Source: an uncultured Actinomycetes bacterium
Lineage (GTDB): Bacteria; Actinomycetota; Acidimicrobiia; Acidimicrobiales; RAAP-2
Direction of reading: 5' to 3'
Assembly: GCA_903893745.1 (NCBI GenBank)
Contig: CAITNF010000001.1
Span: 1-64,000, forward strand
DNA length: 64,000 bases
The position numbers and the translations under genes are program-made. How positions within the stretch are numbered: position 1 is the first letter of the stretch; each line of letters begins with the position of its first letter. A model generated the notes under the pieces. It had not been told where the DNA came from and did no database searches. It was given only the letters and a program-made list of their open reading frames with translations. Of this stretch, positions 5,621 to 40,127 are shown piece after piece.

Positions 5621-6496
5621 TTAAGCGGCTTTCTTAAGAGCCGCGCTGTTGGTTAAGTATTGCATTTCAAAGTTGACTGGCGAGACTTGACCGAGTGAAG
5701 CGTGTCGACGTCGACGGTTGTAGCGGTCCTCGATCCAGTTGCTGACCGCAAGGCGAGCACCCTGCTTGGTTGGCCACACGCGCCGGTAGTAGAACTCGGT
5801 CTTCAAGGTGGCGAAGAACGACTCGGCCATGGCGTTATCCCAGCACACTCCGGTGTAGCCCATCGAGCGGGTGAGTCCGTTAGCGTTCGCGAACGTGGTG
5901 ATCTGGTCCGAGGCGTATTGCGTTCCTCGGTCGGTGTGAAAAATGACCTTCGCGGGTCGTTCGCCCCGGAGGGTGATCGCCATGCGTAGGGCGTCTTCGA
6001 CGAGGTCACTGCGCATGTGCTCGTCGATCGCCCAGCCGATGACGCGACGTGAGTGTGCGTCGATGACCGTGGCTAAGTAAAGCCATCCTTCCCAGGTGCG
6101 CAGGTAGGAGATATCGCCAATCCAAACCTGGTTGAGTGCCCCGACGTCCCACTTTCGTTGCACGACGTCAATCGGGTAGGTGTCAGTCGTGTTGGTGATG
6201 GTCGTCGTCTTCCAGCGCTTCGGGCAGACGCCCTTCAGGCCGAGTTCACGCATGATCTTCGCGACGGTCTTCTTCGAGATCGTCTCACCGTCCTCGCGTA
6301 GGTCCACGAGGATCTTGGGGGAACCCGACACCTCGTCGGACTCCCCGTGAAACCAGGCCACTTTCGCCTCGATCCGCTCGTGACGCAGCGCTCTCTTTGA
6401 GGGCGTCCGACGACACCAGGCGTAGTACCCGGACCTCGAGACCTCTAAGAGTCGGACCATGCGGGTAATCGTGAAGTTGCTCTTCTCCGCGAGCAT
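5621..6496 (-). CDS. IS3-family transposase OrfB (DDE integrase core)
   Basis: 291 residues. An N-terminal HTH_21-like segment (SRSGYYAW) precedes the retroviral-type rve core with the catalytic triad Asp128 (WIGDISYL), Asp189 (HTDRGTQY) and Glu225 (NAMAESFF). In IS3 elements the active enzyme is the OrfAB fusion made by -1 frameshifting; here the orfB frame stays open upstream to the A7G run at 6552-6559. A separate ATG overlaps the orfA stop as TGATG (6494-6498). Intact by length and motifs. Confidence 0.95.
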   Translation of the reverse strand: MLAEKSNFTITRMVRLLEVSRSGYYAWCRRTPSKRALRHERIEAKVAWFHGESDEVSGSPKILVDLREDGETISKKTVAKIMRELGLKGVCPKRWKTTTITNTTDTYPIDVVQRKWDVGALNQVWIGDISYLRTWEGWLYLATVIDAHSRRVIGWAIDEHMRSDLVEDALRMAITLRGERPAKVIFHTDRGTQYASDQITTFANANGLTRSMGYTGVCWDNAMAESFFATLKTEFYYRRVWPTKQGARLAVSNWIEDRYNRRRRHASLGQVSPVNFEMQYLTNSAALKKAA

Positions 6497-7858: not shown

Positions 7859-8623
7859 TTAGATTAATTCTTCTTCGCGGCTCTTGATCAACATGATCAA
7901 GACTGCGAAGAGGCCAAACAACGGCTTTGCGAGCACGTCAGCTATTGAGTAGCCAACCTGACGCGAAACGAGAGCGGCAGTTTCGTTTGAGATGAGTCGC
8001 GGCAAGATGAACGCGACTGGGTAGACCAACCACGTCACCAAAATTACCCAGCGCATACCAGAAACCAACTGGCGAATTCGAGCCGGCTGACCATCGAGCG
8101 ACTTGGTGAGTTCAACAAAGAGGACGTAGAGGACGTAGATGAAGAAGATCGTCGAAAGTCCTCCCCACACGAGACGCGCCGTCGAGTGAGCGGGGGCAAT
8201 CTCTCCGGGGTAACCAAGACCAATCATGAAGAGTGACGCCACTGAAAGCTTGATAATCAGTCCGCGGGCAACCTCAGCCTTGAGTCGAAGCACCGTAATG
8301 AGCTCCGCCAAAAGAAGTGGCACGGTGAGCAGCCAGTCAACGTAGCGGTACGCCTCGTTGAACGGAGTGCCCGACATGACGTACGAACCGTTGACGAAGT
8401 GAAATGCTTCATTCCATGAGTTAAAGATACGAAGGTAGTGGTAACCAGCGATCAACACGACCAGTGTGGTCAAGTTGAGGGCAGTTTGGTTTTTCTTGGT
8501 TATTTGATTACGAATCAGCAAGAAGTAGACAAACGAAGCAATCATTGCGGCAAACACAAACGACAGTGCGTTGTAGACCAAATTGAACTGTCCATGTGAG
8601 AGCGTAAGTACAGCGTTATTCAT
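7859..8623 (-). CDS. Actinorhodopsin-like light-driven proton pump
   Basis: 254 residues with seven hydrophobic helices. Helix C reads RYVDWLLTVPLLLAE, giving the proton-pump triad Asp96 (acceptor), Thr100 and Glu107 (donor), the DTE pattern of proteorhodopsin/actinorhodopsin. Helix G carries Lys233 (ADVLAKPLFG) for the retinal Schiff base. His62 in helix B would pair with Asp96. Leu104 at the tuning position predicts green absorption. The small WGGLS segment at 153-157 in helix E is like xanthorhodopsin-type proteins that leave room for a carotenoid antenna. AGGAG lies 7 nt before the ATG, so this gene has a conventional leader. No retinal-forming (blh) gene is seen in the window. Confidence 0.95.
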   Translation of the reverse strand: MNNAVLTLSHGQFNLVYNALSFVFAAMIASFVYFLLIRNQITKKNQTALNLTTLVVLIAGYHYLRIFNSWNEAFHFVNGSYVMSGTPFNEAYRYVDWLLTVPLLLAELITVLRLKAEVARGLIIKLSVASLFMIGLGYPGEIAPAHSTARLVWGGLSTIFFIYVLYVLFVELTKSLDGQPARIRQLVSGMRWVILVTWLVYPVAFILPRLISNETAALVSRQVGYSIADVLAKPLFGLFAVLIMLIKSREEELI

Positions 8624-12510: not shown

Positions 12511-13185
12511 ATGAGCTCATTTTTCATTGGAAAGAATATTTGCATAGTTGGCGGTTCGGGAGTGCTTGGTGGCGAAATTGCGCGACAGTTATTGAGTCGC
12601 GGCGCCGATGTCTGCGTTATCGCTCGCCACCCAGATCACATTGCCCCGGATCTACAGGGACTTCGTTCTGCTCAAAGTGACATCCGTTCACGCGACTCAC
12701 TCCAAGCGGCGTTCAACCAGATGGGTGGTGACTTTGACGGAATAGTAAACGCCTGTGGAGTAGTGGCCTTTGGTTCAATAGACTCCACGCCCCCTGAAAT
12801 AGTCAGTGAGTTGATGAATGTCAACGCAGTGGGGACAATGAATGTTTTGGCTCTGGGTCGTGACACCGTGAAGGACGGTGGATTCATCGTCTCGCTCACT
12901 GGTGTAGCCGCGGACATGAATCTGGTGGGCATGGCTGGCTACTGCGCCTCAAAGTCCGCTGCTCACAAGATGATGACCATCGCCGCACGAGAATTCCGGT
13001 CGAAGAAAATTACGGTACTCGACGTACGAGCTCCACACACGGAGACCGGTCTCGTGGACCGGGCACTCCATGGCACGGCTCCAAAAATGCCTGAGGGGCT
13101 CGACCCAGTGTCGGTCGCCGCACGCATTTTGTTGGCCCTTGAAAATGGAGAGAGCGATCTCCCCGCCGAGGCTTTCACCGCTTAG
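12511..13185 (+). CDS. Short-chain dehydrogenase/reductase
   Basis: 224 residues with a Rossmann fold: GGSGVLGGEIA in place of the usual TGxxxGIG nucleotide-binding loop, a VNACGV segment at the NNAG position, and the catalytic Tyr-x3-Lys as YCASK with a preceding Ser in SLTGVA. It should oxidise or reduce an alcohol/ketone with NAD(P); the substrate is unknown. TAGTAT at 12499-12504 is exactly -12 to -7 from the ATG, so the transcript is probably leaderless. Confidence 0.9.
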   Translation: MSSFFIGKNICIVGGSGVLGGEIARQLLSRGADVCVIARHPDHIAPDLQGLRSAQSDIRSRDSLQAAFNQMGGDFDGIVNACGVVAFGSIDSTPPEIVSELMNVNAVGTMNVLALGRDTVKDGGFIVSLTGVAADMNLVGMAGYCASKSAAHKMMTIAAREFRSKKITVLDVRAPHTETGLVDRALHGTAPKMPEGLDPVSVAARILLALENGESDLPAEAFTA

Positions 13186-39454: not shown

Positions 39455-39589
39455 GTCAAACAAAAAGTAAACAATCGCGACACCACTCACAGAGTATTCA
39501 CAGTAGCGACGTTGCTACCGAATACTGGTGACTTTCGACCCTGGTGACGCGCGCCGGGCACCTCTAGGTTGGAACTGCGAGTAGAAAAT

Positions 39590-39604
39590 CTTTCAATGTG
39601 AAAG
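39590..39604. promoter_or_regulatory. Short dyad upstream of hsp20
   Basis: CTTTCA-ATG-TGAAAG is a perfect 6-bp inverted repeat with a 3-bp spacer, about 28 bp before the hsp20 start. It may be a repressor site, but it does not match the HspR-type HAIR consensus. Confidence 0.4.
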
Positions 39605-39632
39605 GTTGGACATTCAAAAAATGGAGGTTGCG

Positions 39633-40085
39633 ATGAGTAGCACCAAAGTAAAGAAGCGTGATGTGGTATCACCAATGGACATGTCGACAATGACCTGGCC
39701 ATCGTGGCGGTGGCTTGACGAAATGTTTCACGATTTCGAAGGTCACCACATGATTAAAGTCGAGCAGTTTGATGAGGGCGGGACCTTTGTCGTGCGAGCC
39801 GAGCTCCCCGGTCTCGATCCAGATAAGGACATTCAGCTCGAAATAGCTGACGGTTAGTTAGTACTTCACGTTGAGAAGTCGGCCGTCTCCAATGAGCTAC
39901 ACCATCACGTGCAACGAAGTGAATTTCATTACGGGTCAATGACTCGAACAATTCCGCTACCCCGAGGCGCTGACGAAGCTTCGATGAGGGCAACCTATAA
40001 CGACGGAATCTTGGAAATCCGGACGAATCACCCCGCCGAAATCAAGTTTCAGGCGACTCGCCCTATTTTGATTGATCACAACTGA
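39633..40085 (+). pseudogene. Small heat-shock protein Hsp20 interrupted by one in-frame TAG
   Basis: The ATG at 39633 is fixed by GGAGG shortly upstream. Residues 1-74 cover the N-arm and the first alpha-crystallin strands (FVVRAELPGLDPDKDIQLEIADG). A TAG at 39855-39857 then stops the frame. In the same frame the domain continues without any indel (LVLHVEKSAVSNEL, then MTRTIPLPRGADEASMRATY and NDGILEIRT) to a TGA at 40083-40085, where a terminator follows at once. The expected residue at the stop is Gln (CAG to TAG fits DGQLVLHVEK). It is either a recent nonsense mutation, an assembly or base-call error, or a read-through case. Truncated product 74 residues, full product 150. Confidence 0.85.
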
Positions 40086-40088
40086 CCC

Positions 40089-40127
40089 AATCAACCCGGC
40101 GTCTCGACGAGAGGCGCCGGGTTGATT
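40089..40127 (+). terminator. Terminator of the hsp20 gene
   Basis: 13-bp perfect stem AATCAACCCGGCG/CGCCGGGTTGATT, extendable by four pairs to a 5-nt loop, then TCGTTCGTT. It begins 4 nt past the full-length hsp20 stop, showing that the transcription unit is built for the uninterrupted frame. Confidence 0.85.

Follow-up and report, generated by a model that had tools for sequence, protein, structure and literature searches.

The small heat-shock proteins of the Hsp20/alpha-crystallin family (PF00011) have a C-terminal motif of the I-x-I type as a family feature. The protein studied here reaches several solved members by profile, among them HspA (6ewn, E 1.8e-23) and the low-molecular-weight heat-shock proteins 3gt6, 3gla, and 5j7n. 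When read through, its frame matches the family and 29 genes of one subfamily at about 41-53% identity, but it differs from them in being interrupted at codon 75, which leaves a 74-residue product that is unmatched to the family. In this respect it resembles the nonsense-type pseudogenes of bacteria, with which it shares a single inactivating lesion, an otherwise conserved frame, and retained control signals. Feng and colleagues reportedly described translated 'pseudo-pseudogenes' in 2022. According to PMC13345370, pseudogene transcripts are still bound by ribosomes and few of them have detectable proteins. A further likeness is to mycobacterial hspX/acr of the DosR system, in that an alpha-crystallin gene is found with a DosR-box-like element 5' of it. 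The mycobacterial gene is tabulated as Rv2031c acr/hspX in the introduction of PMC4082495.

The gene lies in a stretch of 64 kb (the window, hereafter) of a draft genome of 1.66 Mb in 18 contigs that is 96.4% complete, and whose nearest named matches are metagenome-assembled genomes obtained from bog, fen, and palsa, most of them bearing the title Acidimicrobiaceae bacterium and some the titles Actinomycetes or Acidobacteria. Elsewhere in the window, a 254-residue membrane protein (7859-8623, minus strand) resembles, by eye, a microbial rhodopsin, and an open reading frame at 5621-6496 (minus strand) resembles, likewise by eye, an IS3-family transposase. Translation of positions 39633-40085 on the plus strand gives 74 codons, a TAG at 39855-39857, 75 further codons, and a TGA, confirming that hsp20 is split by a single in-frame stop, as the initial annotation had proposed. 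The first part (39633-39854) encodes the N-terminal arm and the first three alpha-crystallin strands, and the second (39858-40085) comprises the 75 codons and the TGA. Read through, the frame matches PF00011 at residues 48-146 (E 1.7e-13) with 50.9 bits, above the curated cut-off of 20.8. The part 3' of the TAG suffices for a match to the family, over profile positions 40-101 of 102 (E 8.9e-8), which bears out the earlier claim of a conserved second half, and includes an ILI that aligns with VEV or IEI of the relatives. The 74-residue product expected under the standard code retrieves no Pfam family at E<=1 when searched alone and, having only three of seven strands of the model, would not amount to an alpha-crystallin domain. 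In the structure predicted for the frame when read through (38 sequences, mean pLDDT 69.2), codon 75 is the first residue of the strand spanning 75-90 and follows three of the seven strands. The inactivating stop thus falls inside the conserved domain, as the translation and the PF00011 matches both indicate. In-frame starts 3' of the TAG (GTG 39909, ATG 39939, ATG 39984, TTG 40011, and TTG 40068) could in principle serve for re-initiation, which we set aside, given that no obvious ribosome site is seen by eye and that the product would lack the first strands.

The subfamily alignment consists of 29 relatives (L003-L020 and L033-L043), excluding 11 more distant loci (L021-L031). The window protein has matches in 54 genomes, of which the best 30 places, that of the window included, supplied the loci. 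At the site of the TAG the alignment with these relatives has zero gaps, in agreement with the frame having been described as continuous and free of indels. The column itself is variable: the relatives carry E (9), A (7), D (6), M (4), Q (2), or T (1), encoded by GAA (5), GAG (4), GAC (5), GAT (1), GCG (4), GCA (2), GCC (1), ATG (4), CAA (2), and ACC (1). The derivation of the stop from an expected Gln by a CAG-to-TAG change therefore fails, Gln being present in only two of the 29 relatives, as CAA in both, and CAG in none. No ancestral residue can be inferred for codon 75, and Gln as the expected residue is unsupported. The comparison with orthologous loci, which had been suggested as a check, did yield relatives that are open at the stop site, but because the closest of them among the best 30 places is only 53% identical to the window Hsp20, they cannot show whether the TAG is a true mutation or an error. 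The neighbourhood is of no help in dating the loss, because when the six flanking genes were compared with 40 relative loci (flanks of ~1.5 kb), only the upstream methyltransferase was matched, and in one locus only (L022).

The initial annotation had further seen no other decay in the gene, a statement that holds for frame-breaking lesions, none of which besides the TAG is apparent on translation of 39633-40085, but not for divergence. We compared hsp20 with purM in genomes that have both loci (14 for identities and 12 for the tree). The window branch is the longest of the hsp20 tree (0.98 substitutions per site, followed by 0.67 for G072 and 0.54 for G027), against purM branches of 0.21, 0.19, and 0.24, respectively. 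The window hsp20 is 50 and 51% identical to its counterparts in G023 and G005, versus 80 and 78% for purM, with G005 and G023 being 70% (hsp20) and 81% (purM) identical to each other. One-sided changes between the window and G023, with G035 as outgroup, stand at 33:9 for hsp20 and 26:12 for purM, and when relative rates are compared with those of G023 or G005, 13 of 14 tests show the window hsp20 to be the faster one at p<0.05 (the remaining one giving 0.0501), versus four of 14 for purM. Three of 33 near-invariant sites are broken in the window hsp20, as against a maximum of two in any of the 29 relatives. When each sequence is scored against a profile built from the rest, the second half of the window hsp20 comes last of the 30, at 1.45 bits per column (next 1.83), and its first half, at 2.48, is in the ordinary range; the first half is nevertheless fast when one-sided changes are counted against G005 (e.g., 19:1 with outgroup G035). 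This asymmetry between halves is no proof of decay, because the intact hsp20 of G027 (L009) shows a similar one (2.89 versus 1.83 bits per column), nor does divergence alone prove relaxed selection, because G027 is asymmetric and both G072 and G027 have long branches. Most of the long branch of the window gene probably predates the stop.

The regions on either side of the gene seem to have kept their signals. An element, GTGACTTTCGACCCTG (39528-39543, plus strand), which resembles the mycobacterial DosR box, lies 105 nt 5' of the start codon; it fits 12 of the 13 specified positions of GTGACNTTNGNCCCTA and is the sole match with at most one mismatch in the 64 kb, where 0.06 would be expected. 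Many subfamily members have GTGACNTTNGNCCCTA 84-120 nt 5' of the start codon, and of the 29 upstream regions compared, which include that of the window but not that of L020, whose upstream sequence is missing, 13 have at least 12 of the 13 positions, versus 0 of 5800 shuffles, the consensus having been derived from the same sequences. Counts of GKGACNTTNGNCCC in 28 chosen genomes amount to 3 in the window genome, 0-4 in seven more genomes that do not exceed 1.8 Mb, and 4-16 in twenty that reach 2.0 Mb or more (0-3 per genome for the reversed pattern as a control); G063 and G075, which lack PF00011 matches, have 13 and 12 such elements. The number of GKGACNTTNGNCCC elements tracks genome size more than hsp20 and was not used as evidence. 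Downstream of the element, the leader contains a hairpin of nine pairs with a 3-base loop (39587-39607, -6.1 kcal/mol, z -3.07), whose pairing register is common to the window and eight relatives (L004, L005, L009, L015, L019, L033, L034, and L040), with both-sided changes in five of the nine pairs and most bases differing. Together with a second leader hairpin, 94.3% of cells pair, versus at most 63.4% with the partners slid. This second hairpin covers the ribosome-binding site in relatives (folded for G023) and is not kept in the register of the relatives in the window. Taken over all its 66 bases, the window leader folds no better than shuffles (z -0.63), and only the hairpin folds better than they do; the leader has no match in Rfam up to E 10. 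As an aside, the leader hairpin, accompanied in relatives by the second one over the ribosome-binding site, makes a candidate RNA thermometer. GGAGG, the likely ribosome-binding site, follows at 39623-39627, five bases 5' of the ATG at 39633. At the other end, a terminator had been placed 4 nt past the TGA, and a strong hairpin of 17 pairs is indeed found there (40089-40127; MFE -32.9 kcal/mol, z -7.85, equalled by none of 200 shuffles); only four of the eight bases after its stem are T, and the consensus scan does not list it. Because the upstream element and the leader hairpin are conserved, we suggest that hsp20 may have been regulated until recently.

In a survey of the genus, 81 PF00011 matches were found in 62 of 99 genomes, 19 of which have two. 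That of the window is the sole match in its genome, and the only one of the 81 with a stop inside the matched stretch. A second, distant hsp20 in another genome (G087:C39:44470-44811) has a TGA crossed by its longer, weak match to the window protein, but none inside its PF00011 stretch. Since PF00011 is unmatched in 37 of the 99 genomes, among them 22 of the 59 near-complete ones, small heat-shock proteins look dispensable in the genus.

The reading that we favour, at roughly two chances in three, is that of a genuine and fairly recent nonsense mutation in a gene that was already under weakened selection and has kept its control signals. The initial annotation had left the choice between a very recent mutation, a base-call error, and read-through of the stop, and the last of these fared worst. 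If the UAG at codon 75 were usefully decoded, some full-length chaperone would be made beside the truncated chain; the lack of further frame-breaking lesions, the signals kept on the promoter and terminator sides, and the position of the stop at a variable column and the edge of a strand, where many residues should be tolerated, would all be compatible with this. Yet none of the 46 tRNA matches of the window genome (96.4% complete), all read by ARAGORN, has a CTA anticodon, and PrfA (RF1) is present in an open frame and over its cut-off. Pyrrolysine is rejected, the only match to PylS, in a frame of 663 residues, being sub-threshold (18.8 versus 178.15 bits); 12 of 14 control genomes likewise match this model only below the cut-off. 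No relative has a stop at this position, and TAG ends 17 of 51 hand-listed genes of the window (TAA 18, TGA 16), including the SDR at 12511. The frame 5' of grpE at the window edge, which we take to be dnaK by its position only, also ends in TAG. This supports what had been stated from the outset, namely that TAG is a normal stop here and the code is not reassigned: a code change is rejected in view of these 17 genes, the lack of a CTA-anticodon tRNA, and the presence of RF1. Nothing found in the genome would favour decoding of the codon-75 UAG, and we regard functional read-through as very improbable. More doubtful still would be its use as a dosage throttle, by which the sole small heat-shock gene of a small-genome lineage would give mostly truncated chain and little full-length chaperone. 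An older pseudogene, in which the stop was fixed long ago, the second half drifted neutrally, and further lesions are missing by luck, seems no more credible than decoding. The contrast between the least conserved second half of the 30 and an ordinary first half would suit it, and in simulations of the second half it takes roughly 10 to slightly more than 30 neutral changes to lower six tested relatives to the window score, with 0.37 to 0.77 of such sequences staying stop-free when indels are ignored. But when the whole gene is mutated neutrally, the lesion-free fraction after 30 mutations drops from 0.41 without indels to 0.05 and 0.005 when indels make up 10% and 20%, respectively, and after 60 mutations with 10% indels only 0.3% remain lesion-free; in addition, the intact gene of G027 is similarly asymmetric, and the upstream element, leader hairpin, GGAGG, and terminator all persist. 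An old stop is therefore unlikely, and a brand-new one is not required.

The main rival to a genuine mutation, unlikely in our view but to be taken seriously, is an artefact, the TAG being a consensus base-call error or a minority-strain allele in a population whose gene is intact and encodes an ordinary small heat-shock protein. It would fit a draft of 18 contigs and a lone substitution amid otherwise intact hsp20 signals, as well as the 80 other PF00011 matches of the genus, none of which has a stop within its matched stretch. That same scarcity speaks against a nascent pseudogene, as it implies that decaying copies are not often caught. The unusual divergence of the gene and its weakened second half are not predicted by a base-call error, and members of the genus commonly lose the family, two arguments which bear on the gene and not on the base itself. 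A genuine nonsense mutation remains the reading that we prefer, and as the frame is otherwise intact, the time free of constraint would have been limited.

Under such a nonsense mutation, selection on hsp20 would probably have weakened in this lineage before the stop arose, and a single change would then have hit the sole small heat-shock gene of a small-genome actinobacterium, turning it into a nascent pseudogene. The message would presumably still be made and end at its own terminator, with ribosomes halting at codon 75 to release a product of 74 residues that has three of the seven strands seen in the model. Because this truncated chain would be unable to form the alpha-crystallin domain, the cell would be left without small heat-shock protein function, a state seemingly shared with the 22 near-complete genomes (of 59) mentioned above. 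The stop is most likely an ordinary event, another case of nonsense-type gene loss, and it needs no special mechanism, because the family looks dispensable and the gene was already diverging fast. The value of the analysis is thus mainly corrective, the stop lying in a chaperone family that is seemingly absent from over a third of the genus, and the leader hairpin and the DosR-box-like element probably deserve study more than the stop itself. If the base is real, the locus would capture an early step in the loss of a small heat-shock protein, with the upstream element, the leader, and the terminator still present.
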